Assembly: GCA_015075445.1 (NCBI GenBank)
Contig: JABTUJ010000040.1
Coordinates: 1-64,000, forward strand
DNA length: 64,000 bases
Reading direction: 5' to 3'
From: Verrucomicrobiales bacterium
Lineage (GTDB): Bacteria; Verrucomicrobiota; Verrucomicrobiia; Limisphaerales; J093
In this document: positions 2,804 to 53,221 of the stretch, one piece after another
How positions within the stretch are numbered: position 1 is the first letter of the stretch
Layout of the letters: each line of letters opens with the position of its first letter
The notes under the pieces: model-generated
Told to the model about the DNA's origin: nothing
What the model saw: the letters and a program-made list of their open reading frames with translations, nothing else
Database searches by the model: none
Program-made: the position numbers and the translations under genes

Positions 2804-2829
2804 GGGGGAAGCGGGCCGGACGACGCCGT

Positions 2830-3370: not shown

Positions 3371-3429
3371 AGCGCTCGGGGAAGCGGCCTGCTCCTTTCG
3401 GACCTGCTGAGGGGTCCTGAACCGGGGAG

Positions 3430-3574: not shown

Positions 3575-3603
3575 CCGGACAGGGGGGCGGGCGGGCGGGG
3601 GCA

Positions 3604-4056: not shown

Positions 4057-4114
4057 CGGATTTCGGGCCGAGGCAAGCTGATCAAAGAGCCGGTTGACCG
4101 TCGAGAAGACAGAT

Positions 4115-4130
4115 TGTAGTCTGAGCTACA
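4115..4130. promoter_or_regulatory. inverted repeat, possible MntR operator
   Basis: Perfect inverted repeat TGTAG-TCTGAG-CTACA in the gap between mntR and the divergent outer-membrane-protein gene, about 33 bp before that gene's likely start. DtxR/MntR proteins bind inverted repeats of about this size near their own and target promoters. Assigning this one to MntR is inference from position and symmetry only. Confidence 0.4.
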
Positions 4131-4162
4131 TGTTATTCTCAACATCACAATCAATCATCTCT

Positions 4163-5071
4163 ATGACCCCCGGCCGCCGCGCGTCCTCCGTCCGGCGGCG
4201 CGTCCTGGCCGTCACGGCGGCCGGCGCCTTCGCCTCCCACGCGCCCAGCGCCGCCCAGGACACGACCCGCTCAGACGACGCCCGGCCGGAGGCGTCGCGT
4301 CACCACCTCTTCCATCCCACGCCGCGCCCGTGGCTGCGCGCGCTCAGCGCCGACCGGCCCGATCAGACCGAGTCGCCCTACACGGTGGATCCCGGGCGTT
4401 TCCAGGTGGAGATGGATCTCGTCAAGGCGGTGTGGGACTCCGACAGGTCCGGCGGCGACGAGGTGCGCACGACGGGTTGGGGGACGTCGTTGAACCTGAA
4501 GGCGGGACTGTTGGATCGCGTGGACCTCCAGTTCGTGCTTGACCCCTATGTGAGCGAGCGTGTCGAGAGGCGCTCGACCGGCGCGGTGACCGAGGCTTCG
4601 GGCCTGGGGGACTTGCAGACGCGGCTCAAGATCAATCTGTGGGGGAATGACGGTGGGAGGACGGCGTTTGCGGTCATGCCGTTCGTCAAATGGCCGCTCT
4701 CTGCGTCGGGCCTGCGCAATGGCGAGACCGAGGGCGGCCTGATTCTGCCGTTCAGTGTGGAACTGCCGGCAGGCTGGGGGATGGGCATGATGACGGAGGT
4801 CGGCTTTGTCAGCTATGGGACCGACGGCCACCACCCGGAGTATTTCAACACCCTGACCTTCGGCCACGATCTGGTCGGGGAGCTAGCGGGCTACGTGGAA
4901 TTCGCGGCGTTGGTCGCCCCGAAGAGCGGGGCGGAGTGGCAGGGGCAGTTGGGCGTGGGCTTCACGTACGGTCTGGGCGCGAACACCCAACTGGATCTCG
5001 GCTGCAACTTCGGGGTCACCGAGTCCGCGCCGGACTTCAACCCGTTCCTCGGTGTGACTTTCCGGTTCTAG
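4163..5071 (+). CDS. outer-membrane beta-barrel protein, MetA-pathway-like transporter
   Basis: Predicted outer-membrane barrel similar in style to the Phenol_MetA_deg transporter family. I chose ATG 4163 (302 aa) because the longer reading from 4094 runs through the probable regulatory inverted repeat. An Arg-rich start and hydrophobic AVTAAGAFASHAPSAA form a signal peptide ending near residue 30. The mature protein starts with a DRPDQTESPYTVDPGRFQVE segment and has alternating amphipathic strands with Gly-rich turns. It ends in a C-terminal aromatic strand GVTFRF, the usual signal for barrel assembly. It is divergent from mntR, so a role in metal handling is possible but unproven. Confidence 0.65.
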   Translation: MTPGRRASSVRRRVLAVTAAGAFASHAPSAAQDTTRSDDARPEASRHHLFHPTPRPWLRALSADRPDQTESPYTVDPGRFQVEMDLVKAVWDSDRSGGDEVRTTGWGTSLNLKAGLLDRVDLQFVLDPYVSERVERRSTGAVTEASGLGDLQTRLKINLWGNDGGRTAFAVMPFVKWPLSASGLRNGETEGGLILPFSVELPAGWGMGMMTEVGFVSYGTDGHHPEYFNTLTFGHDLVGELAGYVEFAALVAPKSGAEWQGQLGVGFTYGLGANTQLDLGCNFGVTESAPDFNPFLGVTFRF

Positions 5072-5377: not shown

Positions 5378-6715
5378 ATGGGACCTGTCTCCTCTTCCTC
5401 ACCGTCGGCGATGTCCGACAAGGGCATTCTGGCCGGCGTGACCGCCTACCACTGGCTGGTCGTGATCATCGCGTCCGCCGGCTGGCTGTTCGACTGCATG
5501 GATCAGCGGCTGTTCATCCTGTGCCGCGAGGCGGCGCTGACCGAGCTCATGGGGAGCGAGACGGCACGGGCGACGGTCAAGAAGTTCGGCGGGTACGCGA
5601 CGACGGTCATGATGCTGGGCTGGGCCACGGGCGGCATCATTTTCGGGATCATGAGCGACCGGGCGGGGCGGGTGAAGACGATGATCGCCACCCTGCTGGT
5701 GTATTCGGGCTTCACGGGCTTGTCCGGCTGTGCGCAGGGCTGGGGTGATTTCATCGCGTACCGCTTTCTGGTGGGGCTCGGAGTGGGGGGGATGTTTGGA
5801 GCGGCCACCACGCTGGTGGCGGAGAGTGTGCCGGGGAGCTTCCGGGCGGTGGCGCTGGGGTCGCTGCAGGCGTTGTCGGCCACGGGCAACATCACGGGAT
5901 CGCTGATCAGCTATCTGATTCCGCCGGGCCAGGCGGAGTTCCTCTTCGGCTTCTCCGGCTGGCGCGTGTTGTTTTTCGTGGGGATTCTGCCGTCGCTCCT
6001 GGTGATCCCGATGATTGTCGTCCTGAAGGAACCGGAGCCGTGGAAGCGGGCGCGGGAGGCAGCGCGGTCCGGCGTGCCTGGGAAGCAGGCGGGTTCGCTG
6101 GTCGAGTTGTTGAGTCACCCGGTGTGGCGGCGTCACGCGATTGTGGGCCTGCTGATTGGGCTGTCCGGCATGGCGGGGTTGTGGGGCATCGCGTTCTTCT
6201 CGCCGGAGCTGATCTCGACGGCGCTGGCCAACGAGGCGGCGGCGGAAGTAGACCGCGTGAAGAGTGTGGGGACGGCGCTGCAGGATGTGGGGGCGTTTCT
6301 GGGCATGGTCGCGTTCACGTTTGTGGCGTCCCGGCTATCGCGTCGGCTGGCCTTTCTGGGCTCGCTGCTGTTCTGCTGGGTGGTGGTGTCGTACGTGTTC
6401 TTCTCGCTGCATTCGAAGACGGACGCCTACTGGATGTTGCCGCTGATGGGGTTTGCGACGCTGTCGGTGTTCGCGGGGTACTCGATCTACTTTCCCGAAC
6501 TGTTCCCGACACGGCTGCGGGGGACGGGGGTGGGCTTCTGCTACAACACAGTGCGCTATGTTGCGGCGCCGGTGCCGGCGCTGCTGGGCCATCTGGCGGA
6601 TTGGATGGGCTCGTTCCGGTATGCGGCCATTGCCATGGCGAGCGTGTATTTGATCGGGGTGGTGGCGTTGATCTGGGCGCCGGAGACCAAAGACAAGCCG
6701 CTGCCGGAGGATTGA
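5378..6715 (+). CDS. MFS transporter
   Basis: Major facilitator superfamily permease, 445 aa, with about 12 predicted membrane helices. It is of the sugar/aromatic-acid transporter type. Helix 1 contains GWLFDCMDQRLF. The conserved loop 2-3 signature appears as GIMSDRAGRVKT, and helix 4 as RFLVGLGVGGMFGAATTLVAE. The second half has FPELFPTRLRGTGVGFCYN and ends with APETKDKPLPED. Substrate unknown. It faces a convergent paralogue (6782-8169) of the same architecture, 66 bp away, suggesting an old inverted duplication. An alternative start is ATG 5411. Confidence 0.85.
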   Translation: MGPVSSSSPSAMSDKGILAGVTAYHWLVVIIASAGWLFDCMDQRLFILCREAALTELMGSETARATVKKFGGYATTVMMLGWATGGIIFGIMSDRAGRVKTMIATLLVYSGFTGLSGCAQGWGDFIAYRFLVGLGVGGMFGAATTLVAESVPGSFRAVALGSLQALSATGNITGSLISYLIPPGQAEFLFGFSGWRVLFFVGILPSLLVIPMIVVLKEPEPWKRAREAARSGVPGKQAGSLVELLSHPVWRRHAIVGLLIGLSGMAGLWGIAFFSPELISTALANEAAAEVDRVKSVGTALQDVGAFLGMVAFTFVASRLSRRLAFLGSLLFCWVVVSYVFFSLHSKTDAYWMLPLMGFATLSVFAGYSIYFPELFPTRLRGTGVGFCYNTVRYVAAPVPALLGHLADWMGSFRYAAIAMASVYLIGVVALIWAPETKDKPLPED

Positions 6716-8234: not shown

Positions 8235-9407
8235 TCAGATCTTGCCGAGGGCGCTTTCCACGACCCGTTTGAAGAGGTTCTCGCCCACGTTGACGATGCG
8301 CATCTCGCGGCGGGCGTTCTCGACCGAGTCACTGGCGTGCGCCGCGTTCACCATGATGTTCGAGCCGAACTCCCGCCGGATCGAGCCCGGCGGCGCCTTG
8401 GTCGGATCGGTCGGGCCGAGGACGTCGCGGATTTTGGCCACGGCATTGACGCCTTCGTAGATGAGGGCGATGCACTTCTCGGTGCCGGCCGAGGTCATGA
8501 GCGAGGGATCGCACTCGCTCGGGCTGCGGCCGGCCATGAAGCGGACGATGTTCTCGAACTGGTTCTCGCCGAACACCGGCCCGAGCACCTCGCCCAGCTT
8601 CTTCTGCTCGGAAAGCGGGATGCGGAAGCCCAGTTCTTTTTCCAGGATGTCCCGGGCCCGGTTGGCGACGACGTCCTGGAGCTTGGTGCGGAGGATCTCG
8701 CGGACGGGGCCATAAAACTCCATGGCCTGGGCCACGCTCATCTGGTGCAGCTTGATGCCGACGATGAACAGCCCTGTGCGCGAGAAGAAATCGATCATGT
8801 TGCCCGGACGCCCCGAGGCGAACCGGAAGTTGTCGGGCTTCAGCAGCACCAACGTCCGCTCGGGTTTTTCCTCGGGCTCGTAGTGGACGACCTCCTCAAG
8901 CACGCCGCCGTCGGCGTCAGCATACTTGGCCCAGATGCGGAGCTTGGCGACGGCTTCGTCCGGCGTGGGGGCGGCGAGGACGGCGGGTTCGAAGTACCGG
9001 ACGTTGTCCTGTTCGTCCAAGATGAGGTCGCCGTAGGTCTCGCGGATGGTCTGACCTCCGCGGCGGTGCAGGCTGAAGCTGCCCACGACGCTGCGGACCT
9101 GCCGGACGGCATCCTCACCCTTGAACAGGAGCAGCATGACGCGCCGCCGGCGGCCGGACTTTGGATCCGGGCTGAACTGCGCGAGGACGTAATCGCGGAT
9201 GAGCTCTTGAATCCGGCGGTCCTGGGGGTCGTGGGTCGAGACGACCTGCTCGGCGTACTCGCGCACGAGCTCCGGGCTGGGGGCAAACATCCGGGCGGCC
9301 ACCAGGTCGACATTCGTCCGGGCAATCAGCCGGGCAATGATCCCGCCCGTCCGGGATTTGTGGAGGGAGTGGGGCGTGATGAGGGCGTAGGCGAGCTGTT
9401 CGGGCAT
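8235..9407 (-). CDS. double-domain nucleoside diphosphate kinase-like protein
   Basis: Nucleoside diphosphate kinase-like protein of 390 aa, about 2.7 times the usual 140-150 aa, because two NDK-like domains are fused. The C-terminal domain (about 180-390) starts RTLVLLKPDNFR and ends with SIRREFG then NAAHASDSVENARREM, which carries the phosphorylated histidine (H357) of the NxxH(G/A)SDS active-site motif. The N-terminal domain has a parallel layout with TIRETYGDLIL, but aligning the two places N135 where the histidine should be, so it is probably non-catalytic. The catalytic domain also has an insertion around DILEKELGFRIPLSEQ. It lies 14 bp after the DUF5679 gene on the same strand. Confidence 0.8.
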   Translation of the reverse strand: MPEQLAYALITPHSLHKSRTGGIIARLIARTNVDLVAARMFAPSPELVREYAEQVVSTHDPQDRRIQELIRDYVLAQFSPDPKSGRRRRVMLLLFKGEDAVRQVRSVVGSFSLHRRGGQTIRETYGDLILDEQDNVRYFEPAVLAAPTPDEAVAKLRIWAKYADADGGVLEEVVHYEPEEKPERTLVLLKPDNFRFASGRPGNMIDFFSRTGLFIVGIKLHQMSVAQAMEFYGPVREILRTKLQDVVANRARDILEKELGFRIPLSEQKKLGEVLGPVFGENQFENIVRFMAGRSPSECDPSLMTSAGTEKCIALIYEGVNAVAKIRDVLGPTDPTKAPPGSIRREFGSNIMVNAAHASDSVENARREMRIVNVGENLFKRVVESALGKI

Positions 9408-13753: not shown

Positions 13754-16116
13754 TCAGGAGCCTTGAGCACGCCGACGAGGTTCAGCCGGTTCAGCCGGCG
13801 GAGCACGACCAGCGCGGAACCGACCGACGCCACGGCCACTGTGGCCACGGCAAACGCATAGTTCGAAGAGGTCAGAATCACCGGCAGCCGGACGGTCTCG
13901 GTGTTGACCGCGTTCACGATGGCGGTGGCAAAACCCGTGCCCAGCAACAGCCCGACCGGGACGGAAATCAGCGCCAGAATCACCAGCTCGGTGATCAGCA
14001 CCGTCCCCACCTCGTGCCGCGAGAAGCCGATGACCCGCAGCGTCGCCAGCTCCCGGGCACGTTCGGCCAGCGAGATGCGGGCGTTATTGTAGACCACGCC
14101 GAACGCCACGATCATCGCGAACGCCATGTAGATCTTCTGAAACAGGTTGATGCTCGCCGCCGTCGTCTGCCGGAAGTTGTCACGCAACGTGGCTTTAACC
14201 GCCACCCAGCTCACCCGGGGCAGATCCTTCAGCGCCCGTAAGAAATCCGCCCGATGCCGTCCGTCCAGCCGGAAACTGGCGCCGGTGAGCATGTCGCCTT
14301 CGCCCAACATCCGGTTCAGCGCCCGCAAGTCCATGTACGCGGCCACCCCCGCCAGGTCCTCGGCCAACCCCACCAGCGGCACCACCCGCGTCATCCGCCG
14401 GCCTTCGAGCACCTCGACCACCAGCGGATCGCCCACCCGCGCCTCGAGGACTTCCGCGAGCTTGGCCGAGAGCACCAGCCGGACCGCCGGCAACGGGATC
14501 CGCCGGTACCGAGCATCGATCACCCGGTTGTGCCGCGCGTCCGGAACCTGCCCCTGCAACGCCAACTGCCGGCTCCGATGCCCGTGCCGGATCCGCGCGA
14601 ACGCCGTCCGAAACGGCTCCACCGCCACCACCCCCGGCAGCCGTTCGAACAGGTGCTCGACCGACTCGTGCGCCGGCTCGACCAACCCCACGCTCATGTC
14701 CTGGCGCTGCACCACGTCCCACTGGAAATCCAGCACCTGGCTCACCGAATCCCGAAACGCATTGGGCACCACCAGAATCCCCGTCGCCAGCGCCAGCCCC
14801 GCCACCGTGAACACCGCCTGCCACGGCTTCCGTTCCAGGTTGCGAATCGCGATCCGGAACGTGTGCGAGAACCAGCGGCTGATTCCCGTACGCTCCACGA
14901 ACGCCGGGCGGTAGTTGGCCGGCGGCTCGGGACGCATCGCCTCCGCCGGCGGCAGCCGGGCCGCGCGCCGCACCGCGCTGAACACCCCCAACGCCGCCGC
15001 ACCCGTGCTGATCACCAGCGCCAGCCCCACCGCCGATTGGTCGAGCCGGAACTCGAGCGAGGGGAAGCGGAAGAACACCGTGTAAAGCACGACAATCCGG
15101 TGCCCCAGCACCACCCCTCCCACGCCGCCAAGCAGCGTCCCGCCGGCGACCATCACGAACGCGAACTTCAGATAGTGCAGCACGATCTGGTGGTTCGTGA
15201 ACCCAAACGCCTTCAGAATCGCGATCTGTTCCCGCTGCAACGCCAGCAACCGCGACAACACCGCGTTCGTCATGAACGCCGCCACGCTCAGAAACACCAC
15301 CGGAAAACCAACCGCCAGTGTGCTCAACACCCGGATCTCGTCCGACACCCGGATGTGGGACGGGTGATCCGCCCGCCCATAGGCACCGCGCCCGCCATAG
15401 GGCACCAGCATCCGGTCCAGCGCCGCAATCACCGGCCTTTCGCCCGCCCCCGGATCGAGCCGCAGACTCAGGTGGTTGAACGCCCCATCGAGGTCGAACG
15501 CCGCCGCCAGTTCCCGGTACGACATCCAGAAAATCCCGTACGTCCGGTTGTCCGGCAGCGCCGTCCCCGGCCGCGACTCGAAGATGTACTCGGGCGACAG
15601 CACGATCCCGGCGAGGTCCAGGGTCTGGCGCCGCCCGTTCAACAGCATCGTGACCGTGTCCCCCGGCCGCAGCCCGTTCGCCTCGGCAAACGCCTCACCC
15701 ACGAGCACCTCGCCCCGCCGCCCCGGCGTCAGCCAGCGTCCCGCGCGGAGATGCAGGCCGTTGAGGCGCGGTTCTCCGAAGTCAGGCAGCGACAACACCT
15801 GTCCGCTGGCGGGTTCGTCCAGGTCGGGAAGGTCCAGCGTGATCTGCGACGCGATGCTGGGCTGCACCACGGCCACGCCGGGCAGTGCCGCCACCTGGTC
15901 CGCCACAAACAACGGCGCGCGTTTCAGGTGCACAAACACGTCGGCGAAACGCTTGGCTTGGTAATACTCCTGGCGCGTGCTCTCGAGCGAGTGGATCAGA
16001 CTCCGCGCCATGATCATCATCGCCAGCCCGCACGCCATCACCAACGCCACCGCCACCGCCTGGCCCTTCATGCGGCTCAGGTCACGCACCAGCTTGCGAT
16101 CCAGATGGGCGAGCAT
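13750..16116 (-). CDS. ABC transporter permease, double FtsX domain
   Basis: Large permease of 788 aa from the chosen start (MLAHLDRKLVRDL at 16116; the reading frame extends to 16158 without support). It has two FtsX-type domains, each preceded by a periplasmic MacB-core-like region. Helices include GQAVAVALVMACGLAMMIMA near the N-terminus, groups of three around residues 270-385, one at about 440, and the C-terminal set with AFAMIVAFGVVYNNARISLAERARELATLRVIGFSRHEV, the FtsX coupling segment. Families of this shape pair with a LolD/MacB-type ATPase, yet none is encoded next to it; the upstream gene at 16423 is an oxidoreductase on the other strand. Confidence 0.85.
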   Translation of the reverse strand: MLAHLDRKLVRDLSRMKGQAVAVALVMACGLAMMIMARSLIHSLESTRQEYYQAKRFADVFVHLKRAPLFVADQVAALPGVAVVQPSIASQITLDLPDLDEPASGQVLSLPDFGEPRLNGLHLRAGRWLTPGRRGEVLVGEAFAEANGLRPGDTVTMLLNGRRQTLDLAGIVLSPEYIFESRPGTALPDNRTYGIFWMSYRELAAAFDLDGAFNHLSLRLDPGAGERPVIAALDRMLVPYGGRGAYGRADHPSHIRVSDEIRVLSTLAVGFPVVFLSVAAFMTNAVLSRLLALQREQIAILKAFGFTNHQIVLHYLKFAFVMVAGGTLLGGVGGVVLGHRIVVLYTVFFRFPSLEFRLDQSAVGLALVISTGAAALGVFSAVRRAARLPPAEAMRPEPPANYRPAFVERTGISRWFSHTFRIAIRNLERKPWQAVFTVAGLALATGILVVPNAFRDSVSQVLDFQWDVVQRQDMSVGLVEPAHESVEHLFERLPGVVAVEPFRTAFARIRHGHRSRQLALQGQVPDARHNRVIDARYRRIPLPAVRLVLSAKLAEVLEARVGDPLVVEVLEGRRMTRVVPLVGLAEDLAGVAAYMDLRALNRMLGEGDMLTGASFRLDGRHRADFLRALKDLPRVSWVAVKATLRDNFRQTTAASINLFQKIYMAFAMIVAFGVVYNNARISLAERARELATLRVIGFSRHEVGTVLITELVILALISVPVGLLLGTGFATAIVNAVNTETVRLPVILTSSNYAFAVATVAVASVGSALVVLRRLNRLNLVGVLKAPE

Positions 16117-16194
16117 CACATCACATCGGGACCCGACACCTAGCCAGTTTCCTCCCACCGAGGCAAGCGCGCTCTCAGGGCCAGTCTTTCGTTG

Positions 16195-16323
16195 CTGTAG
16201 GAGCCGACGTCAGGAGGCCTCGTAGTCGCCGACGTCCGGAGGCATGGTAGGGGCCGACGTCCGGAGGCATCGTGGTTCAGCGGCATCGCGGCCTTCGCCT
16301 CCTCACGTCGGCGCCTACCCACG
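16195..16323. repeat. cluster of GTAGGNGCCGACGT repeats in both orientations
   Basis: Three forward copies (about 16195, 16221, 16246) with the form GTAGG-GCCGACGTCCGGAGG, then an inverted copy CCTCCTCACGTCGGCGCCTA near 16300, then two decayed CGCACCTACCCAC-like fragments. The cluster fills the gap between the divergently transcribed permease and oxidoreductase genes, so promoters for both must lie in or beside it. Confidence 0.75.
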
Positions 16324-16422
16324 GTCGCACCTACCCACTATCGCGCCTACCCACTTGCACCCGGTCGCCCCAGTGGCTAGCCTCCGACGTCTCCCAAGAA
16401 ACCGTGGCAGCATCTCCAGAAT

Positions 16423-17751
16423 ATGAAACGACGCGACTTCCTCCGCTCGGCCGCCGTCACCGGCGCCGGTGTCCTGATCCTTCCCCGCACCCGGCTCTTC
16501 GGTGCGGATGCACCCAGCAACAAGCTCAACATCGCCCTGCTGGGCACCTGGGGCCGCGGCGAGGCCCACTTCAACGCCATCGCCAGTGAAAACGTCGTCG
16601 CCCTCTGCGACGTCAACGAGGAACACCTCGCGTTCGGCGCCAAGCGGTTCCCCGCCGCCAAGACCTACGTGGACTGGCGCAAATGCCTCGACCAAAAAGA
16701 CGTCAACGCCGTCGTCTGCTGCACCGCCGACCACACCCACGCCTTCATCGCCAACTGGGCGATGAATCGCGACCAGCACGTGTACATGGAGAAGCCCCTC
16801 GCCAACAGCGTCGAGGAAGCCCGCGTCGTCCGCGCCAAGTACCTCCAGAAACGAGCCAAGCTCGCCACCCAGGTCGGCATGCAGCGCCACGCCCACGAGA
16901 ACTTCAACCGCCTGCGCGAACTCGTGCACGACGGCGCCATCGGCGACCTCGAATCCGCCTGCGCCTGGGGCAACCGTCGGCTGCCCCGACCCGGCTATCT
17001 GCCCGCCCAGGGCGAACCCCCGCCGCACCTCCATTATGACCTCTGGATCGGCCCCTCGCCCTTCCACCCCTACAACCCCGGCTATTTCGCCGGCGGCCCC
17101 GGCATGAACTGTCTTTCCTGGAACATGTACTGGGACTTCGGCAGCGGGCAGGTGGGGGACATGGGCAGCCACACCATGGACCTCGTGTGGAATGTCATCG
17201 ATCCCGACCTCCCCGTGTCGGCGGAGGCCAAGGGCGATCCCTACAACGCCGACGTGACGCCCGTGAAGCTCGAAGCCCACTTCGGGCTGCCGGCCAACAA
17301 CTGGCGCCGCGCTCTCCCCGTGGCCTGGTACCAGGGCGGGGCCATGCCCGAGACCCCGATCAAGTTCATCGACCTCAATCAGATCGACCACGGCGCCCTC
17401 TTCGAAGGCAGCCGCGGCTCGATTGTCGCGGACTTCACCAACCGCGTCCTGTTCCCGAGCGGCCGCGACGCCGACCTCACCTACTACCGGCCCCGGGCGA
17501 AGGACAAGCTGATCCCGCCGCTGGGCGACTTCCAGAAGCAGTGGATCAACGCCTGCAAGGGCAGCCTCAAGACCTCCTGCGACTTCGATTACGGCGGCAC
17601 GATGATCGAGACCCTTCTCCTGGGTCTGGTCGCTTACCGGGCTGGCCGCAAGATTACCTACGACGGCGCCGCCGGCCGGGTCACCGACCCTGCGGAAGCC
17701 AACGCATTTCTGCGCCGCACCTATCGGCCGGGTTGGACCTTGAACGGCTGA
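16423..17751 (+). CDS. Gfo/Idh/MocA-family oxidoreductase with Tat leader
   Basis: NAD(P)-dependent sugar or inositol oxidoreductase of the Gfo/Idh/MocA family, 442 aa. The leader MKRRDFLRSAAVTGAGVLI has the Tat signature (RRDFLR). The Rossmann domain begins LNIALLGTWGRGEAHF, followed by ALCDVNEE. YMEKPLA near residues 121-127 is the family's EKP motif with the catalytic lysine. The C-terminal half has LHYDLWIGPSP and GQVGDMGSHTMDLVWNVIDP, typical of the large verrucomicrobial and planctomycete exported subfamily. Substrate unknown. It precedes the intron-bearing repeat region and has no obvious operon partner. Confidence 0.9.
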   Translation: MKRRDFLRSAAVTGAGVLILPRTRLFGADAPSNKLNIALLGTWGRGEAHFNAIASENVVALCDVNEEHLAFGAKRFPAAKTYVDWRKCLDQKDVNAVVCCTADHTHAFIANWAMNRDQHVYMEKPLANSVEEARVVRAKYLQKRAKLATQVGMQRHAHENFNRLRELVHDGAIGDLESACAWGNRRLPRPGYLPAQGEPPPHLHYDLWIGPSPFHPYNPGYFAGGPGMNCLSWNMYWDFGSGQVGDMGSHTMDLVWNVIDPDLPVSAEAKGDPYNADVTPVKLEAHFGLPANNWRRALPVAWYQGGAMPETPIKFIDLNQIDHGALFEGSRGSIVADFTNRVLFPSGRDADLTYYRPRAKDKLIPPLGDFQKQWINACKGSLKTSCDFDYGGTMIETLLLGLVAYRAGRKITYDGAAGRVTDPAEANAFLRRTYRPGWTLNG

Positions 17752-39541: not shown

Positions 39542-41498
39542 ATAGGGGTAGGGATGGCGGGGTTAGCGCCACCCCTCCCTCCGAACCGTACGGGCGGATT
39601 TCCCGCATACGGCTCTCCGGTCAGTGGGGTCTCTGCGAGACTAACCGTAAGCGCATGAGCCATGTTCCAGACTAAACAGGCCCTGCGCCGCAAACCATCG
39701 GTTCGGCCAGCGTCGGCTGTCGGCTTCACTCAGCCCGTATCCGGGCCGCTTTTCCCGCTTGCGCAGCAGGGCCCGCAAGCGGCGGCGCAGCCAGCCGTCC
39801 GGTCCGCGCAGGCCCGTCCAGTGACTGTTCCCGAAGTAACCGTGCCAACCCCGCAGGATCGGGTTCACCTGCGCGATGATCTCGCCCAGACTTTGCCCGT
39901 GGGTCCGCCGCGTCAGCGGTCGCAACCGTTCCTGCAGCTTCTGGAGGCTCTTCTTCCGCGGCCACTTCTTCCCGCCGCGAAAGTGCCAGCCCAGGAAGTC
40001 GAAGCCGACCTCGGTCGCGTTCACGATCCGCGTCTTGGTCGGGTGCAGGGTCAGCCCCGCCCCCGTGGTCCAGGCCCGCAGAAAGCTCAGCACCGCCTCG
40101 GCTTCCTCCCCGCTCTGGCACAGCACGACCAGGTCGTCCGCATAGCGCACCATCGCCCAGCCCCGCCGTCCCATCTCGTGGTCCAACGGGTTGAGGTAGA
40201 GGTTCGCCAGCATCGGACTAATCACCGCCCCCTGCGGGGTCCCGCGTTCGGTCGGCTGCCAGCCCTTGAGCTCCTCCAACACGCCGGCTTTGAGACATTG
40301 TTCCACCAGCGTCAGGACGCTGCCGTCCACGATACGCGCTTGGACCAACGCCATCAGCCCCTCGTGCGGAATCGTATCGAAGTAGCTCTTGAGGTCCGCG
40401 TCCACGCACCAGACGTAGCCTCGGCGCAAGAGCTCCTCCACCTGTCCCACCGCTTCCCGACAGCCGCGCCCCGGTCGAAACCCATAGCTGCACTCGGCAA
40501 AGTCCTGTTCGAAGATCGGTTCCAGAACGTTGCGCAAGGCCGCTTCCACGGTCCGATCCCGCACCGCCGGGATCCCCAGCGGCCGTTGCTCGGTCGTGCC
40601 CATCTTTTCGATCCAGACGCGTCGTGCCGGTTGACGGCGGTAACGCTGGGTGCGCAGTTCTTCCTCCAGTCGGGCCAGTTCAGACGCCGCCTCTCGGTCA
40701 AACTCCTGCACCGTTTGCTCATCCACTCCGGGTGCTCCCCGATTCCGCCATACCGCTTGGAAGGCGGCCTGCAGATTTCGAGGCACACGCACTTTGTCCC
40801 AGAGTCCGAACCATACCGTTGTCGGCCCGCTTTGGGCGAGCCGCGTTAGCATCCGGTCCGTCCACACCGAACGTTCGATCCACCCTCGGAGGTCGCGGAC
40901 CTCTCCGGCTTGTTTAGGCTGAGTCGCCCCAGTCACTATCGCCGGTCGTTCTTTCCGTTCGTCGTTCGTCATGGTCGTTCCGTCTCCACTTTCCTGCGTC
41001 CCTTCGCTCCCCGGGCATTACCCCGCTTCGACGCTACTACGGACGCTCTGACTCCCCTCGGGCGGCTCTTCGGGCCTCCGCGGCCATGAACACCGTTCTG
41101 TACCCCGACGGGTCTCCCTGCTTACTTCGCCCATGCTTCCCTCCGTTCCGTCCCCAACCACCCCGCCGCCCCAGCCCCGGCATTTGCGTCCATCCACCTT
41201 TTCGTCTGCCGGTAACCGCCAGCCAGCGGACCCGATCTCCGGGGGGAGACCGAGGGAGCGTTTCCCACGCGGGTCATGGCTTGGGCTTCGCACAGCACTC
41301 GCAGGCTCGCCGGTCGGCGTGGCCGAATCGGGTTCACGTTGCGGGTTCAATACTTCGCATTGTTACGGACCGGTGGTTCACCTCCGGCAGCTTCCCACCC
41401 CGTGTTGCCACGACGCAGTAGCCTTCGGTCACAGGCGGGTGAATGTGCCGCCTGACGGGGACTTCCACCCCGCAGTATGGGCGCCCTCACAGGCGCAC
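39542..41498 (-). mobile_element. group IIC-like intron with reverse transcriptase
   Basis: Complete minus-strand group II intron of 1,957 nt, from GTGCGCC at 41498 to CCCCTAT at 39542. The 5' exon is a stem-loop GCGCCG/CGGCGC followed by ACTC and the 3' exon starts CAAACGC, the same target architecture as the ORF-less intron at 17854. Domain I has AGTCGGCG-type and GTCCGTAACAATG stretches. The domain V region near 39590 reads AGCCGTATGCGGGAAATCCG then CCCGTACGGTTCGG. The ORF at 39641-40972 lies in the domain IV region. Insertion after a terminator-like hairpin and the lack of an endonuclease domain agree with class C. Confidence 0.88.
39641..40972 (-). CDS. ltrA: group II intron reverse transcriptase/maturase
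   Basis: 443-aa intron-encoded protein. RT motifs in order are APGVDEQTV, PLGIPAVRDRTVEAALRNVLEPIFE, SYGFRPGRGCREAV, DADLKSYFDTIPHEGLM, GTPQGAVISPMLANLYL and the active site YADD (277-280). The maturase/thumb region contains GFDFLGWHFR, RPLTRRTHGQSL and ILRGWHGYFGNS. There is no HNH endonuclease at the C-terminus, as in IIC enzymes. It should splice its own intron and move it by target-primed reverse transcription, and might also serve the 726-nt ORF-less copy. Confidence 0.92.
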   Translation of the reverse strand: MTNDERKERPAIVTGATQPKQAGEVRDLRGWIERSVWTDRMLTRLAQSGPTTVWFGLWDKVRVPRNLQAAFQAVWRNRGAPGVDEQTVQEFDREAASELARLEEELRTQRYRRQPARRVWIEKMGTTEQRPLGIPAVRDRTVEAALRNVLEPIFEQDFAECSYGFRPGRGCREAVGQVEELLRRGYVWCVDADLKSYFDTIPHEGLMALVQARIVDGSVLTLVEQCLKAGVLEELKGWQPTERGTPQGAVISPMLANLYLNPLDHEMGRRGWAMVRYADDLVVLCQSGEEAEAVLSFLRAWTTGAGLTLHPTKTRIVNATEVGFDFLGWHFRGGKKWPRKKSLQKLQERLRPLTRRTHGQSLGEIIAQVNPILRGWHGYFGNSHWTGLRGPDGWLRRRLRALLRKREKRPGYGLSEADSRRWPNRWFAAQGLFSLEHGSCAYG

Positions 41499-46149: not shown

Positions 46150-46971
46150 ATGAAGAAGACCTTGCTCACCGTGGCGGCGCTGATCGCCGTCCTCACTGCG
46201 ATCCTGGGCATCAAGGCGGTGCGCAGCCACGCGACCACCGTCCGGGACGGCATCCGCACCACTGTCCGGGGCGCCACCCCGGCCGACTACGAAACCAAGC
46301 GCATCAAGGCGCTCCTCTCTGACATGTCCCGTGACGTGCTGGCCTTCTCCGACAAGATCGCCGAGATCGAACAGACCGCGGCCGCCCAACGGGAGGATGC
46401 CCAACGCTTGGAGGTCCGCATCGCCGCCGACCGCACTGACCTGCTCACCGAACGCAACCTGCTCGCGGGCGAGGGCCAGGTGTTTACCATCCGCGGAGCG
46501 ACCTACTCCCGCGCCCAGGTGGAGGCCAGCGCCTCCGCTCGACTGGCCCAAATCCAGCGCGATCAGGCGACACTCGAGACCAAGCGGCAGGTGATCGAGC
46601 GGCTCAAGACCGCCGCCCAGGACGGCCAGGCCCGCTTGCGGGAAGCCGTCGCCGTCCGCGACGCCAAAGTCCAGGAGCTCGAGATCCTGGCCGCCGACCT
46701 GGCCAACGCCGAACTCCAGCGCGACCTCCAGGCCCTGGCTGCGCCGCTGCAGGATGGCGTCCTGTCCCGTTCCCAGAACGAGTTGGCCGAGTCCCTGAAG
46801 GCGTTCTCCAACCGGGTGCGGGATGCGAAGCGCGAAGTCGAAGCGAACACTCTTGGTTCCTCGACGCCGGCGATCATCCCTCACCAGCCCAGCGCCGCGC
46901 AGTCCGGCCTGCTCGAGCAGATTGACCAAGTGTTCCTGCCGCCGGCGACCACGCCGAACCAAGGGAAGTAA
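46150..46971 (+). CDS. membrane-anchored coiled-coil protein
   Basis: 273-aa protein not assigned to a named family. It starts after AAAGAAGAG with a hydrophobic anchor or signal (LLTVAALIAVLTAILGI). Almost all of residues 45-240 is predicted coiled coil with many Ala, Gln, Arg and Glu residues, reminiscent of PspA/Vipp1-type or septation coiled coils but without a clear match. A short GEGQVFTIRGATYSRAQVE insert interrupts the helix near 110-125. The end is Pro-rich (LPPATTPNQGK). It precedes the DGR target kinase on the same strand by 164 bp, so it may belong to that module. Confidence 0.65.
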   Translation: MKKTLLTVAALIAVLTAILGIKAVRSHATTVRDGIRTTVRGATPADYETKRIKALLSDMSRDVLAFSDKIAEIEQTAAAQREDAQRLEVRIAADRTDLLTERNLLAGEGQVFTIRGATYSRAQVEASASARLAQIQRDQATLETKRQVIERLKTAAQDGQARLREAVAVRDAKVQELEILAADLANAELQRDLQALAAPLQDGVLSRSQNELAESLKAFSNRVRDAKREVEANTLGSSTPAIIPHQPSAAQSGLLEQIDQVFLPPATTPNQGK

Positions 46972-47135
46972 CCGGACTGGCCTCGGGTCCGGGCGGCGTG
47001 TCAAAGCCGGCGCCCGGTCCCTGCCGTCGGGGCCGATGGCTCCGCATGCGAATCAGCAACCCTGAACCTGCTCGCCGAAGCCCGAAATCCGCTTGTCACC
47101 GAAGCCGGCCTTCCTCAACCCTCTCCCCCATCAGC

Positions 47136-50100
47136 ATGGCCACCCAGCAGACCATCGTGAAGCCCGACTTCCCCGAGGCGCTGCTCCGGATGGAGGACGG
47201 CGGGGCGCTGCAACCGCCGATTCTCTTCGGCCGGTTCGAGCTCCGCCAACTGGTGCGCCGCTCGCACATGAGCCTGCTGTGCCGGGGCACGCGGGGGGAC
47301 ACCGGTGAAGCGATGGCCGTGAAGATCTGCCTGAAAACCGCCGACCGGGCACGTTTCGAGCGCGAGATTAAACACACCCATAGCATCCGCTTCGCCGCGG
47401 TCATCAAGATTCAGCCGGGAGACGTGGGGGTGACCAAGGACGGCTGTCCCTTCTACGCCATGCCCTGGATTGAGGGACCAACCCTCGGTGCATTTCTTGA
47501 AGACAAACGGCGGTCGGCCGACGAGAAGCTGCGTGCCGTGGAGGAACTGGCGCGGATCGTCGCTGTGCTGCACGAGAAGGGTGTGTGCCATCGCGATCTG
47601 AAGCCCTCGAACGTCATGGTCGAAGGGGGCCGCTGCGAAAGCATCAAGTTGCTGGACTTGGGGTTGGCGCGTTCGGAGGCGGACGATCTGACCCTAACCG
47701 GGGTTCACGTTGGCGGCACACCAGGGTACTATCCGCCGTGGAGCGTGGAGCGACCCGGGCTGATCAAGACCTTCGAGAGGCAGTGGGACGTGTATTCTCT
47801 TGCGGTGATCTTGGTTGGAGCACTCACCGGAGTGCGCCCCGCTGGGGAAAGTGACCCCAACTTCACTCCGGAGGGCGTCAAGGAACTGTTGAGGAAGCAC
47901 TTGCCCGGCGACCGCCGCTTTGACGCCTTGCTGGCTCGTTGCCTGGCCGCCGATCCCAATCAGTGTCCGCCCTCCGCCGACGATTTCTACACCGCCTTCC
48001 GCGCCTGCCGCGGACTGCGCCACCGCCCCGCGAGAACCCTGCCGTACGCCATGGCGGGCGTGCTGGGATTGGCGCTGCTCGCCGGGGCCCACGAGGGTCT
48101 TCGCCGCCTTGCGCCAGAGCGCTACGAAATCGCCCGGGCCTGGCTTCTCGGTGCGGGAACCCTCCCGCCTCCCAATGAACCGATCGTCGCCCCGCCCGAC
48201 CCGCGTATCCTTTCCTACTCCAACGCCACTGTCCGGCTTTCGGTGTCGCCGCCGGGGTCGGGCGTGCACGTTATCAACCACCGCGCCAACGGCGTGGTGC
48301 TGACGAATCTCACCGTGACCGCCTCCGGAGAGGTGGATCTCCTGCTCCCGGAAGACCCGGCGGCCGACTACGGTCTGCTCGTCTTCAAGGCCGGTTATCA
48401 TGAATACCGGCAGTCACTCAAGCCCGGGAGCGGCCCGATCGAAGTCCGGCTGGAACGGTTGCGCAGCGAACTGGAGTTCCGGTCCACTCCGGGTGCCCTG
48501 ATCGAACTGCGCCACGCCGATGGCGAGACCCGCATGGCCGGACCCGTTCCCGCCGGCGGTCAACTCCTGGTCCAATCCCTGGACGAAGGCGACTGGACCT
48601 GGCGGATCACGCGTGCGGACTACGAGACAACCACGGGCAAGGTCACCGGCTTGGCCTGGGGCAAGAAGCAGGTCGTTGACCGTCCGCTCCAACCCCTGCC
48701 CGGCCGGTTATCCGTGGTTGGCCACCCCACGATGGAGGTATGGAGGGGCAACACCCGTCTGCAGCCCACCGACGGGTGGATTCCTCTCGCGGCAGGGGCG
48801 CAGGATTTGGAGTTGCGACGCCGAGGTTTCCGGAGCCAAGCCCTGCGGGTGGAGATCCTGCCGAACCGCGACCTCTCGCGAGTGGCGGAGCCGTTTGTTC
48901 CCGAGGCCGGTACCTTGCGAGTGAGTCTGGACCTGCCGGCGGCGGCGGCGGAGTGGTTCGCCCAGGCGACCAAGCGGCTCAGCCTGGATGGCGTTCCGTT
49001 GAATCCTGGGTCCTTTCCGCACACCGAGGAAGATGTGGGTGCCGGGTCGCACACAGTCCGCCTCGAGGTGGACGGGTTCACGTCCGAGGAACGCCTCGTG
49101 GAAATCCGCGACGGCGAGGTCAGCGAGGTGCGGTTCGCGCTGCAGCTCCTACCGGCCCGGTTGACGGTCGTGTCGGAACCGGCCGACGCGGAGGTCTTTC
49201 GCGGCGAGAGCCGGCTGGGACGGACCGGTGCGGAGTTGTCCATTCCCCCTCTCGAACGGCTCGAACTGGAAGTCCGTGCAGCCGGTTGGCGGACGGCGCG
49301 TCTCCTGGTCCCCGCGGTGTCGCCCGGCGGCGCGCACCGTCAAGAGGTGAAGCTGGAAGATCGCGACGACTTGTACCGTCGTGCCCTCAACGACCTGCGC
49401 ACGCGGTCCCTGCTGCAGGCCACCCGCGAAAGCCCGTGGACGAACAGCCTCGGCCTGAAGTTCGTCCCCGTCGCTGGGACGGGAGTCCTATTCTGCATTT
49501 GGGAGACGCGCGTGCAGGACTTTGAGGCCTTCGTCCAGGCCACCGGCCATGACGCCACCCAGGGCATGTCCTCGCTACGGAAGGACGGTTGGAAGCATCA
49601 CGGCGACACCTGGAAGTCGCCGGGGTTCCGGCAAGGGCCGACGCATCCGGTCGTAGGGGTGAGCTATGACGATGCCGCGGCGTTCTGCGCCTGGCTCACG
49701 GCGAAGGAACAGCGCGAAGGGCGATTGCCCGCAGGCTGGACGTATCGCCTGCCCACCGACAGCGAATGGAGTGCAGCCGCGGGCAACACCTCGTACCCAT
49801 GGGGTGACGCCTGGCCTCCCCCCAAGGATGCCGGCAACTATGCCGGTGAGGAGGCGAAAGACGAGAACTGGCCGGACAACTGCATCGTGCCCCCGAACTG
49901 GCGGGACCGCTTCCCGCGCACCGCCCCGGTCGGGAACTTCGCGCCTAATCCGTTCGGCCTCTATGACCTCGGCGGCAACGTGATGGAATGGTGTTCGGAC
50001 TGGTATGGCAAGGCGATGAACACGGACGAAGTGAGGAGGTTGATGCCTGAGCTCGACCAGGATCATCTGAACACCGCTCGCGTGTTGCGTGGGGCTTCGT

Positions 50101-50216
50101 GGCTCAACGGCTCCCACGCCGCCTTTCTGGCTTCCGGGAGTCGCGGCATCGGCGGTCCCGAGGATCGCATTGACATCCTTGGCTTTCGGGTGGTGGTAGG
50201 TGGTGGGTCGCGCTGA
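47136..50216 (+). CDS. transmembrane Ser/Thr kinase with variable FGE/C-lectin domain (DGR target)
   Basis: 1,026 aa from ATG 47136. The N-terminal kinase (about 31-290) has K63 in MAVKIC, CHRDLKPSN (151-159) and DLG at 174-176, but its Gly-rich loop is degenerate (RRSHMSLLCRG). One membrane helix (about 303-317) follows. Residues about 360-760 are repeated PEGA-like beta modules. The C-terminal domain (about 770-1026) is a formylglycine-generating-enzyme/C-type-lectin fold: FVPVAGTGVLFCIWETRVQDFEAF, HPVVGVSYDDAAAFCAWL, YRLPTDSEWSAAAG, GLYDLGGNVMEWCSDWY. The last 47 residues are the variable repeat, ending DILGFRVVVGGGSR. Topology puts the kinase inside and the variable domain outside, so it reads as a receptor kinase with a diversified sensor. 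Retroelement parts follow directly. Confidence 0.88.
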   Translation: MATQQTIVKPDFPEALLRMEDGGALQPPILFGRFELRQLVRRSHMSLLCRGTRGDTGEAMAVKICLKTADRARFEREIKHTHSIRFAAVIKIQPGDVGVTKDGCPFYAMPWIEGPTLGAFLEDKRRSADEKLRAVEELARIVAVLHEKGVCHRDLKPSNVMVEGGRCESIKLLDLGLARSEADDLTLTGVHVGGTPGYYPPWSVERPGLIKTFERQWDVYSLAVILVGALTGVRPAGESDPNFTPEGVKELLRKHLPGDRRFDALLARCLAADPNQCPPSADDFYTAFRACRGLRHRPARTLPYAMAGVLGLALLAGAHEGLRRLAPERYEIARAWLLGAGTLPPPNEPIVAPPDPRILSYSNATVRLSVSPPGSGVHVINHRANGVVLTNLTVTASGEVDLLLPEDPAADYGLLVFKAGYHEYRQSLKPGSGPIEVRLERLRSELEFRSTPGALIELRHADGETRMAGPVPAGGQLLVQSLDEGDWTWRITRADYETTTGKVTGLAWGKKQVVDRPLQPLPGRLSVVGHPTMEVWRGNTRLQPTDGWIPLAAGAQDLELRRRGFRSQALRVEILPNRDLSRVAEPFVPEAGTLRVSLDLPAAAAEWFAQATKRLSLDGVPLNPGSFPHTEEDVGAGSHTVRLEVDGFTSEERLVEIRDGEVSEVRFALQLLPARLTVVSEPADAEVFRGESRLGRTGAELSIPPLERLELEVRAAGWRTARLLVPAVSPGGAHRQEVKLEDRDDLYRRALNDLRTRSLLQATRESPWTNSLGLKFVPVAGTGVLFCIWETRVQDFEAFVQATGHDATQGMSSLRKDGWKHHGDTWKSPGFRQGPTHPVVGVSYDDAAAFCAWLTAKEQREGRLPAGWTYRLPTDSEWSAAAGNTSYPWGDAWPPPKDAGNYAGEEAKDENWPDNCIVPPNWRDRFPRTAPVGNFAPNPFGLYDLGGNVMEWCSDWYGKAMNTDEVRRLMPELDQDHLNTARVLRGASWLNGSHAAFLASGSRGIGGPEDRIDILGFRVVVGGGSR
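50073..50210 (+). repeat. DGR variable repeat (VR)
   Basis: 138-nt stretch at the 3' end of the kinase gene that matches the template repeat 271 bp downstream. Both begin ACCGCTCGCGTGTTGCGTGG and share GGCTTTCGGGTGGTGGT near the end. By hand alignment of the 25 differing-region codons, 18 of 26 template adenines are changed against 10 of 49 other bases, and the VR has two extra codons. This adenine bias is the signature of DGR mutagenic homing. Confidence 0.9.
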
Positions 50217-50266
50217 GGCCGTTCCTCCTTCTTTCCCTTTATGTGAACCTCTTACCCTTTTCCCCT

Positions 50267-50321
50267 GCGCGCGAAGCGCGCCGGAAATTTCTTGATGATT
50301 TCGGCCCGGCGAAGACCGGGC
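50267..50321 (+). other. two hairpins between VR and TR
   Basis: GCGCGC-GAA-GCGCGC at 50267-50281 and GCCCGG-CGAAGA-CCGGGC at 50304-50321, both perfect. DGRs commonly have a hairpin or cruciform just after the VR that boosts homing. Here the first lies about 57 bp after the VR, further than in the Bordetella phage system. Either may alternatively terminate the kinase mRNA. Confidence 0.55.
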
Positions 50322-50343
50322 TGGAAGTGGAAGACCGGACCAA

Positions 50344-50475
50344 ACCGCTCGCGTGTTGCGTGGGGCTTCGTGGAACAACAACCACGCGGCCAACCTGGCT
50401 TCCGGGTATCGCAATCACAACACGCCCGAGAATCGTAACGACAACAACGGCTTTCGGGTGGTGGTGGGCGGGTCG
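50344..50475 (+). repeat. DGR template repeat (TR)
   Basis: 132-nt template. Read in the VR frame it contains eight AAC and two AAT codons, for example TGG-AAC-AAC-AAC-CAC and GAC-AAC-AAC-GGC, placed at the positions that differ in the VR. AAC is the preferred DGR codon because mutating its adenines yields 15 amino acids and no stop. The frame stays open through the TR, so a spurious ORF covers it. It is the source of the mutagenic RNA. Confidence 0.9.
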
Positions 50476-50631
50476 TTGCGGAAGGCATTCGGCAGAAGCT
50501 GGCGAGGTGCGCCGCGGGCTTCCGGCCTGCGTCGCGAGAGCCGAGAGGAATCGCCTAACCCGGTCCTCCACGCCCCTGCGGGGGAAAAGACGCGGCGACG
50601 GGCCGTGGCCGGTAGGCCACCCGGCCGAAAG

Positions 50632-51012
50632 TCACGGCCCGCCATCTCCTGCCTCAGGGGACCGTTGGCGTCGGGTCTCCAGCGACTTCAACCAGCCACC
50701 GATCATGCGCCCGACTTCATCCAATTGGCCGGCCACGAACCGGAGCTGCTGCTGGCTGATCCAGCCGCGTTCGGCGATCAGACGCCAAAAGACCCGCAGC
50801 TTCTCGAGCGTGACGTTGATCTTCCGCAGCGGCGTCGCTTTGACCGATGCCGGGGCATATATCGCCTCTATGGTGAACTCCAGGCAGTCAAGTGTCAGCC
50901 GGTCGGCCCGCTCCCCGAAGGTGAAGCGGTGGCTGCGGGGCAGCCCGGCAGTGCGGTCGAGTGACCAGCCGGTGAGATCCACCAGCAGGGTGTAAACAGG
51001 AGGGCGGTTCAT
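50632..51012 (-). CDS. avd: DGR accessory variability determinant
   Basis: 126-aa four-helix-bundle protein of the Avd family, needed with the RT for template-primed cDNA synthesis. It reads MNRPPVYTLLVDLTGWSLDR, then PRSHRFTFGERADRLTLDCLEFTIEAIYA, the typical Avd helix 1-2 pattern, and IAERGWISQQQLRFVAGQLDEVGRMIGGWLKS near the end. Basic residues on the helices fit RNA binding. It is encoded opposite to the RT and TR, starting 35 bp from the RT start, so the two are divergent, and the TR-RT transcript would be antisense to it. The frame extends upstream to 51108; ATG 51024 is an alternative start. Confidence 0.85.
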   Translation of the reverse strand: MNRPPVYTLLVDLTGWSLDRTAGLPRSHRFTFGERADRLTLDCLEFTIEAIYAPASVKATPLRKINVTLEKLRVFWRLIAERGWISQQQLRFVAGQLDEVGRMIGGWLKSLETRRQRSPEAGDGGP

Positions 51013-51046
51013 GGGGTTGTTCATCAGACGATTGACAAACTGGAGC

Positions 51047-52147
51047 ATGGCCGATGTGGCGGCCTGGGCCAACCTGCGCGCCGCCAGCCGCCAAGCGGCC
51101 CGCGGCAAGCGCCGCCGCCCGGACGTCGAGACCTGGCTGCTGCGGGAGGAGACCGAACTGCGACAGCTACGCGAAGAACTGCGACAAGGCTCCTACAAGC
51201 CCGGCCGCTACCAGTTCTTCGTGATCCACGAACCGAAACGGCGGGAAATCGCCGCCGCTCCGTTCCGCGACCGGGTGGTGCATCATGCGCTGTGCCGCTG
51301 GATGGCGCCCGTGCTGCAGAGTCGCTTCATTGCCCGGAGCTTCTCCTGCCAGGTGGGCAAAGGCACCACCGCGGCACGGGAGTGCTGCCGACGCCTGACC
51401 AATCAGTTCCCGTACGTGCTCAAGTGTGATGTGCGGAAGTTCTACCCCAGCATGGATCACGCCCTCCTGCTGGGGCAACTCGAGGGCGTGAGCCGCTGTC
51501 CCCAGGTGAGTGCACTCACGCGGAGCATCGTAGACAGCTACCACAGCGGCCCGGACGCACCGGTGGAGCTGTTTCCCGGAGACGACTGGGTGACAGCGTT
51601 CGCCCGCCCCCGCGGCTTGCCCATCGGCAACCTCACCAGCCAGCTCTGGGGGAACTTCTATCTGGACGCTCTGGATCACTGGATCACCGAGGCGCAGCGG
51701 CACGGCGCCTATCTGCGGTACACGGACGATTTCCTGCTCTTCGGCGAGGACAAGGAACGGTTGTGGGACTTGCGGTCGGGGATCGTCACGGGCTTGACCG
51801 CACTCCGGCTGAAACTCGCCGAGCCCAAGAGCCGGCTCCTGGCCACACGGGAGGGTGTCCCCTTCTGCGGTTTCCGGTTCCTACCCGGCGCACGCCCCCG
51901 GATCATGGGCGCCACCAAGCGTCGCTTCGAGCGTCGCCGCCGTGAATTGGCCCGCTCGAGAAAACTGTCACGGCTGACCCAGAGCGTGTTTGCGTGGTAC
52001 CAGTTCAGCCGCGAAGCCAACAGCGAGGGCTTACGCCGGGCTTACGCCCGCCGGGCGGTTGGGGTGAGGCGGGTTGGGCAAGCACAGCCCTCGGGCAGGC
52101 GCACTGGCAGGGCCGAACAGGAACCTATGTTGGCGCATCCCTTATGA
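51047..52147 (+). CDS. DGR reverse transcriptase
   Basis: 366-aa reverse transcriptase from ATG 51047, which has TGGAG a few bases upstream. Palm motifs are HEPKRREIAAAPFRDRVVHHAL, DVRKFYPSMDH and the active site YTDD (225-228; most DGR enzymes have Y-V/M/A-DD). The DGR-specific block GLPIGNLTSQLWGNFYLDALD (from residue 190) replaces the QGxxxSP of other RTs and is linked to low fidelity at adenine. The thumb is short and there is no maturase or endonuclease domain. Its stop TGA overlaps the start of the sigma factor gene (ATGA at 52144), so both are translated from one mRNA. Confidence 0.93.
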   Translation: MADVAAWANLRAASRQAARGKRRRPDVETWLLREETELRQLREELRQGSYKPGRYQFFVIHEPKRREIAAAPFRDRVVHHALCRWMAPVLQSRFIARSFSCQVGKGTTAARECCRRLTNQFPYVLKCDVRKFYPSMDHALLLGQLEGVSRCPQVSALTRSIVDSYHSGPDAPVELFPGDDWVTAFARPRGLPIGNLTSQLWGNFYLDALDHWITEAQRHGAYLRYTDDFLLFGEDKERLWDLRSGIVTGLTALRLKLAEPKSRLLATREGVPFCGFRFLPGARPRIMGATKRRFERRRRELARSRKLSRLTQSVFAWYQFSREANSEGLRRAYARRAVGVRRVGQAQPSGRRTGRAEQEPMLAHPL

Positions 52148-52755
52148 GTTCCTCATCGACACTCACGCTCCTCTCACGGATGCGGCATGGCGATAATGAC
52201 GCCTATAGCGCGTTCTGCCGGAAGTACACCCCTCGGGTTCTGGGCTTCTTGCGCCACAAGTTGCGTCTGGCCGAGCAAGACGCGGAGGATGTATGGCAGG
52301 AAGGCCTGTTGAAACTGAGTCAGAGCAGCCTGCAGCACTACGAAGCGGACAAGAGAGACTTCTTCTCTTGGCTGATGCTTCTTCTGAAGTGCATGGTGTG
52401 TGACCGATGGCGAAGGGAAGGTACCCAGAAACGCGGCGGGCATTGTATCACCGTGTCGGGCGATCAGCCATTGTGGGCAGACGCCCCAGAGGGTGCGACC
52501 ATCTTCGAGGCGCTGGAGGACGAAACCCAAGTGGATTTCGCGCGGACGAGGGAAGCGGTGGCCGAATCACTGGAGGCAATGCTGCGCGATTACCCTGGTG
52601 AAGAGGCCAAGCTTTACCTCCACTGGTTCTGGGCTCAGGACGTCTTGGACCAAAAGGAATTCGCCGCCTCGGTCGGTAAGACGCCTAATCAATGGAGGTA
52701 CATCAAGGAATGCGTGGAGGCCCACCTCCGCAAGCGTTGGGACAAGGACCTATGA
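52144..52755 (+). CDS. ECF-like RNA polymerase sigma factor
   Basis: 203-aa sigma-70 family protein of the extracytoplasmic-function type. Region 2 (about 18-85) contains YSAFCRKYTPRVLGFLRHKL, DAEDVWQEGLLKL and WLMLLLKCMVCDRWRRE. Region 4 (about 145-203) ends with FAASVGKTPNQWRYIKECVEAHLRKRW, a helix-turn-helix. The linker is acidic. The ATG overlaps the RT stop by 4 bp, and the FHA gene follows after 19 bp. ECF factors next to Ser/Thr kinases in this bacterial group can be controlled by phosphorylation; no anti-sigma gene is present. Start 52144 is chosen over the longer frame from 51994 inside the RT. Confidence 0.85.
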   Translation: MSSSSTLTLLSRMRHGDNDAYSAFCRKYTPRVLGFLRHKLRLAEQDAEDVWQEGLLKLSQSSLQHYEADKRDFFSWLMLLLKCMVCDRWRREGTQKRGGHCITVSGDQPLWADAPEGATIFEALEDETQVDFARTREAVAESLEAMLRDYPGEEAKLYLHWFWAQDVLDQKEFAASVGKTPNQWRYIKECVEAHLRKRWDKDL

Positions 52756-52774
52756 CCGTGATCGCCCGCCTTTC

Positions 52775-53221
52775 ATGAACACGCCCACAGATCAGACGAC
52801 GTCCCGCCCGACGTCCGCCGAAATCGAACTCCTCCAGACGCGATTGCTGGACAGCAAACCGCTGCTCGATGCCTTCCCCGGCCCGTTGCCGGCTCCGTGC
52901 TTGTTGCGACGGGTGCTGGATACGGGTGGCGGGGATGTGGAAGCCCTTCCGCTGCTGGGTGTGGTGGTCATCGGCCGCCAGAGTGATCCACCGTTTGGAT
53001 TTCCTGACGACGGTTCCCTGAGTGGCCGCCACTTCCGCATCCTGGTGGGCCCCCGCGGTCGGTGCTATGCGGAGGATCTGAATTCCACGAACGGGCTTTG
53101 GGTCAACGGCCGCCGGGTCAAGCAGCGGTTGCTCGTGCACGGCGATGCCATCCACGCTGGGAACCAGGACTGGGTGTTCCACGATGGCGGCCCCTTGGAC
53201 CCGGAAGACATCGCGGAATAG
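52775..53221 (+). CDS. FHA-domain protein
   Basis: 148-aa protein with a forkhead-associated domain, which binds phosphothreonine. Conserved positions are VVIGRQSD (Gly-Arg of strand 3), SLSGRHFRILV (Ser...Arg-His) and AEDLNSTNGLWVNGRRV (Ser-Thr-Asn-Gly). The first 45 residues are a helical lead. FHA proteins read kinase marks, so this one may bind the phosphorylated kinase at 47136 or the sigma factor. It is the last gene of the plus-strand series. Confidence 0.85.
   Translation: MNTPTDQTTSRPTSAEIELLQTRLLDSKPLLDAFPGPLPAPCLLRRVLDTGGGDVEALPLLGVVVIGRQSDPPFGFPDDGSLSGRHFRILVGPRGRCYAEDLNSTNGLWVNGRRVKQRLLVHGDAIHAGNQDWVFHDGGPLDPEDIAE

Follow-up and report, generated by a model that had tools for sequence, protein, structure and literature searches.

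A drifted DGR module probably grafted onto a receptor-kinase operon of a Verrucomicrobiales bacterium

Positions 46150-53221 of the window (the whole stretch of 64,000 nt that was analysed, from contig JABTUJ010000040.1 of assembly GCA_015075445.1) contain, in plus-strand order, an upstream gene, a kinase-FGE gene, a TR, a DGR-type reverse transcriptase (RT), an ECF sigma factor and an FHA-domain protein, with avd on the minus strand (Table 1). The anatomy given in an earlier note on this DNA is real, but the sigma factor and the FHA protein, both inside the span, had been left unnamed. The likely start of the kinase-FGE gene is the ATG at 47136, from which the homologues align. A Pfam/NCBIfam search gave no match for the upstream gene and placed it in no known family. 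By consensus scan, no promoters or terminators were found near avd and the RT, where few are expected. We also considered a phage-borne element and set it aside: viral contigs yielded only relatives at 26-35% identity, in a comparison that did not survey phage genes systematically. Elsewhere in the window, positions 39983-40612 encode another RT (RVT_1, 140 bits), possibly of a group II intron, with three more equal-scoring copies in the genome.

Table 1 Features of the kinase-FGE DGR locus (positions in the window)
Feature	Position	Strand	Remarks
Upstream gene	46150..46971	+	273 aa; conserved first gene of the operon
DGR target, kinase-TM-PEGA-like-FGE	47136..50216	+	1026 aa; ORF open from 46998 (46998-50216)
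Hanks-type kinase domain	47283..47855	+	Pfam match; HRDLKPSN, DLG, VK lysine
Candidate transmembrane (TM) helix, aa 302-318	48039..48089	+	hydropathy strong in two homologues but marginal in the target
Beta-rich modules, PEGA-like	48228..49355	+	Pfam PEGA match at 49005-49145
FGE-subtype C-type-lectin-fold domain	49419..50213	+	AF2 model, fold match, DGR-target clade
VR, drifted	50073..50204	+	repeat of TR
TR, AAC-rich	50344..50476	+	repeat of VR
avd	50632..51012	-	antisense to RT; PF22296, phrog_3206
DGR reverse transcriptase	51011..52147	+	YTDD, GLPIGNLTSQ
ECF-type sigma factor	52144..52755	+	start overlaps RT stop; homologue adjoins kinase in L069, L072
FHA-domain protein	52775..53221	+	Pfam FHA, 50.6 bits

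The RT is of the DGR type, matching phrog_1423 at 293 bits, and is 60-72% identical to the RTs of loci with clean TR/VR pairs; searches of the order returned one fragment and ten RTs that are 60-69% identical along most of the length, and scanning named genomes yielded 73 loci. The avd product matches bAvd at 52.6 bits (cut-off 40) and scores 75.5 against NF033474, under the cut-off of 80. Both genes follow the TR, as had been claimed, but avd runs antisense to the RT, and the starts of the two ORFs overlap at CATG on opposite strands. This arrangement is not unique to the locus. It occurs in 13 of the 18 scored rows of the RT clade and in 16/62 overall, and is found in 15 other loci (L074, L075, L077-L079, L083-L085, L087-L089, L096, L099, L114 and L121), in which the starts often overlap or lie a few bases apart, and transcription of avd would proceed antisense, in the direction of the TR. 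On a quick tree, avd orientation switches at least nine times. A weak second bAvd match (L162; C27:24894-25190 of the same genome; 34 bits, below the cut-off) lies on a contig with no RVT_1 match. Unusual TR placements were seen in other loci: in L054, the RT ORF ends in a second, in-frame TR-like stretch (about 4640-4780), in addition to the TR at 2852-2994; in L060 the TR is likewise at the RT end; and in L089 the TR (9160-9304) lies on the strand opposite the RT, and VRs occur on both strands, in two genes (T-type mismatches).

The C-terminal VR and the AAC-rich TR form a real pair. Over 129 compared positions, the two differ at 18 of 27 template adenines and at 13 of 102 other bases (Fisher p = 7e-8), a bias that rules out a chance repeat. 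With an RT, an A-biased TR/VR pair, Avd and a C-type-lectin-fold target with a C-terminal VR all present, the locus is a DGR by descent. The pair is not, however, a clean A-only one: 13 of its 31 mismatches fall outside template A, compared with 12 of 374 in the relatives, pooled from pairs that had passed an A-fraction filter of 0.78. When the filter was lifted for the closest loci, no comparably degraded pair came up, and L082, L085 and L145 gave no pair. Third codon positions account for ten of the 13 non-A mismatches (p = 0.012). The VR also carries a 3-nt insertion (one extra codon), which is absent from the templates of 16/16 aligned relatives. Changes are found on the VR side at sites invariant in relatives (50171 and the codon insertion) and on the TR side as well (e.g., 50139, 50147 and 50148); at 50139 and 50148, the TR is non-A where most relatives have A. 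The stretch after GGNTTYCG, likely the 3' homing (IMH-like) end, has 6 VR-TR mismatches in 30 nt, whereas relatives have none in 19 of 20 pairs and one in the remaining pair. A DGR that is homing at present would show differences confined to template adenines and a matching 3' end; neither is seen here.

With drift in the VR, in the TR and at the 3' homing end, the earlier suggestion that the system could generate new specificities is not supported for this copy at present; the DGR probably wrote the VR of the target at one time and is now dormant in this genome. An explanation of the drift by decay of the RT or Avd is not supported, with one departure in the RT and none in Avd from columns invariant in relatives. 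These intact proteins would suit a DGR that is still active, in which rare homing goes on and the differences represent recent TR changes or a second TR or VR outside the assembly. The identity of VR and TR over their first 30 nt and the TR-side changes fit such activity, as does a genome that is only ~87% complete, since a second VR or TR could lie in the missing ~13%. We nevertheless regard continued activity as rather unlikely, given that the VR has changed at sites where relatives do not vary, that the 3' end has diverged, and that the assembly contains no further TR or VR copies beyond short weak matches.

The target had been described as one chain with a kinase, a membrane helix, PEGA-like modules and an FGE domain. 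Pfam supports Pkinase (74 bits), PEGA (29.9 bits; cut-off 20.8) and FGE-sulfatase (135.8 bits), but the PEGA match is a single one and the TM segment is weak (best 19-mer KD 1.37), two other stretches of the target scoring higher. In the kinase domain, K63, H152-N159, D174 and G176 are invariant in seven sequences, and the catalytic Lys, HRD and DxG motifs are present. The glycine-rich loop is degenerate (LVRRSHMSLL), as it is in both non-DGR homologues (L069 and L072). The weak TM and the degenerate loop count against a receptor kinase. A full-length structure model, which at pLDDT 63 is usable for domain order only, contains a helix at 303-316 and predicts, at low confidence, several beta modules at aa ~365-740. 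The same-place TM segments of L069 and L072 are strong (KD 1.94 and 1.99), and a topology with the kinase inside and the FGE domain across the membrane is therefore likely. In a diderm, this predicted topology would place the variable face in the periplasm, not outside the cell as first suggested.

A comparison with other DGR targets revealed that the kinase-TM-(PEGA)-FGE architecture recurs in relatives. Six other loci of verrucomicrobial, Planctomycetota-labelled and Chloroflexi origin share kinase-TM-FGE targets with the locus described here but have mostly A-specific TR/VR pairs, with A-specific mismatches of 13/13 (L056), 15/15 (L080), 16/18 (L083), 18/20 (L086), 15/15 (L090) and 19/19 (L096). 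In L090, PEGA is present as in the target. Judging from these pairs, the kinase-FGE fusions of the relatives are apparently in working order. In L086, the VR (6559-6705) is one base shorter than the TR, putting the C-terminus of its target out of frame. The hydrophobic helix between kinase and FGE is clear in all six loci, and, together with the clear TM at the equivalent position in L069 and L072, it argues against a kinase that is cytosolic, or an FGE domain on the kinase side, with a variable face that selects substrates or partners, a role put forward for the cyanobacterial kinase targets, and does not sense a periplasmic ligand. We consider such an arrangement unlikely, even though the TM segment here is weak, most cyanobacterial DGR kinase targets are predicted to be cytosolic (PMC7517822), and the Chloroflexi kinase-FGE target of L094 has no TM by the same hydropathy test.

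Structure prediction confirmed the FGE/C-type-lectin assignment of the terminal domain. An AlphaFold2 model (pLDDT 84, pTM 0.88) aligned by VIA-align to FGE (Z 22) and to the DGR variable proteins TvpA (Z 20.3), TaqVP (Z 11.5) and Mtd (Z 11.3), characterizing the target as a C-type-lectin-fold domain with a C-terminal VR. TvpA (Treponema denticola, 2y3c), TaqVP (5vf4) and Mtd (1yu2/1yu3) share this fold but, unlike the target, have no kinase domain. In human FGE, the corresponding C-terminal stretch contains the catalytic cysteines (triad residues in PMC6328139). On reading the sequence, we found no cysteine in the C-terminal VR stretch of the target, so FGE catalysis is unlikely. Enzymatic activity of the domain, formylglycine-generating or related, with the repeat being incidental, is highly improbable, since, despite the strong FGE profile and fold match, these cysteines are missing, the repeat is A-biased and the domain sits in a clade of DGR targets.

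The origin of the locus is informed by two copies of a four-gene operon (upstream gene, kinase, sigma factor and FHA protein) that have no TR, avd or RT, one in the same genome (L069) and one in another family of the order (L072). The kinase is 62-64% identical to these copies, the upstream gene, at the equivalent position, 61% (L069) and 56% (L072), and the FHA protein 68% (L069) and 57% (L072). In a sliding comparison with L069, identity of the target is 45-72% over aa 1-660, except for the TM linker at 27%, and falls to ~30% at aa 661-780 and 20-40% over the FGE domain (aa 781-1020), whereas L069 and L072 share 60-75% identity within this domain. The beta modules, like the kinase, match the non-DGR copies. 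A tree built from 59 FGE domains puts that of the target among 14 DGR targets, a starred set in which L090 is its nearest neighbour, while those of L069 and L072 pair elsewhere; a clade of the target FGE with both non-DGR copies, a grouping prompted by the identity profile ahead of tree building, is rejected (p-AU 0.0055). The kinase domain, on the other hand, groups with the non-DGR copies at 100/100. Because the kinase clusters with the non-DGR copies while the FGE domain falls among DGR targets, the most economical interpretation is that FGE, TR, avd and RT apparently arrived as a block, replacing the old FGE domain of a resident receptor-kinase operon.

The kinases of the six related loci, where placed on the tree, belong to other families and fall outside the clade of the target kinase. 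For both L083 and L090, the target kinase pairs with an adjoining kinase that carries no VR, which suggests local grafting there again. The L090 neighbourhood contains more PEGA kinases and an FHA-sigma54-activator gene: an array of PEGA/Sel1 receptor kinases, related to one another but different at their C-termini (1-4717 and 14196-16975), surrounds the DGR-linked kinase and adjoins the activator. Near other DGR loci, no homologue of the sigma factor or FHA protein of the target operon was found.

Kinase-fused DGR targets are already published for cyanobacteria, and the locus is a variation on that theme. Cyanobacterial kinase-CLec targets, the grafting of CLec onto kinases and a ligand-gated kinase were described by Vallota-Eastman 2020 (PMC7517822), in which the protein kinase is reported as the commonest functional domain among cyanobacterial targets; kinase-fused targets are thus not everywhere the minority that the earlier note took them to be. 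The cyanobacterial proteins resemble the target in their N-terminal Ser/Thr kinase and C-terminal CLec VR. They are mostly predicted to be cytosolic, whereas the target is of a TM-PEGA ectodomain type in a Verrucomicrobiota-type locus, which differs further in its sigma/FHA operon, antisense avd and drifted VR. Most cellular DGR targets are reported to carry a TM or signal peptide (Roux 2021). DGR-diversified sensors are also known from conflict systems (Kaur 2020, PMC7159879; Dore 2024, PMC10907252), which likewise join a diversified FGE/CLec sensor to signalling domains; unlike in those systems, we saw no MoxR/vWA/STAND or effector gene adjoining the target, although the RT clade does include NACHT-FGE targets, along with TM-PEGA-FGE and others. 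In the part of the literature covered, we found no report in which a DGR targets a TM-PEGA receptor kinase or has been captured by a kinase-sigma-FHA operon; earlier reports may exist, as they may for antisense avd.

At the sequence level, the locus is a mosaic with an A-biased VR and an intact RT and Avd, and the data support a DGR having formerly written the end of a kinase-fused FGE/C-type-lectin-fold domain. As a plausible course of events, a DGR module (the FGE/C-type-lectin domain with its VR, TR, antisense avd and RT) would have joined the resident receptor-kinase operon, displacing the old FGE domain. In such a receptor, the kinase would be cytoplasmic and the FGE domain periplasmic, and a ligand bound at the VR face would alter kinase activity. 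Phosphorylation could extend to the sigma factor and the FHA protein and hence affect transcription, a step suggested only by gene order. The DGR would have rewritten the VR earlier, and, as the VR, TR and 3' homing end have since diverged, the VR may now be dormant or locked and the present receptor kept by ordinary selection. We consider this overall account, with a module grafted onto the resident operon, a VR once rewritten and now dormant or locked, and signalling by the receptor, to be reasonably probable. More speculatively, FGE-VR/TR/avd/RT may constitute a portable module that has been repeatedly grafted onto resident receptor-kinase operons and that, when a specificity proves useful, can subsequently become locked as the homing end is lost, a generalization that we put forward as possible but doubtful.

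The non-DGR copies provide a natural before-and-after comparison of the same kinase-sigma-FHA operon, once lacking and once bearing a DGR ectodomain, making both the recruitment of a mutator cassette to a signalling receptor and the freezing of a diversified receptor testable. If the module is indeed portable, resident receptor-kinase operons would have been turned into diversifiable receptors, and, if kinase-TM-FGE targets signal, bacteria would possess evolvable receptor kinases that keep a constant output as their binding face is rewritten.
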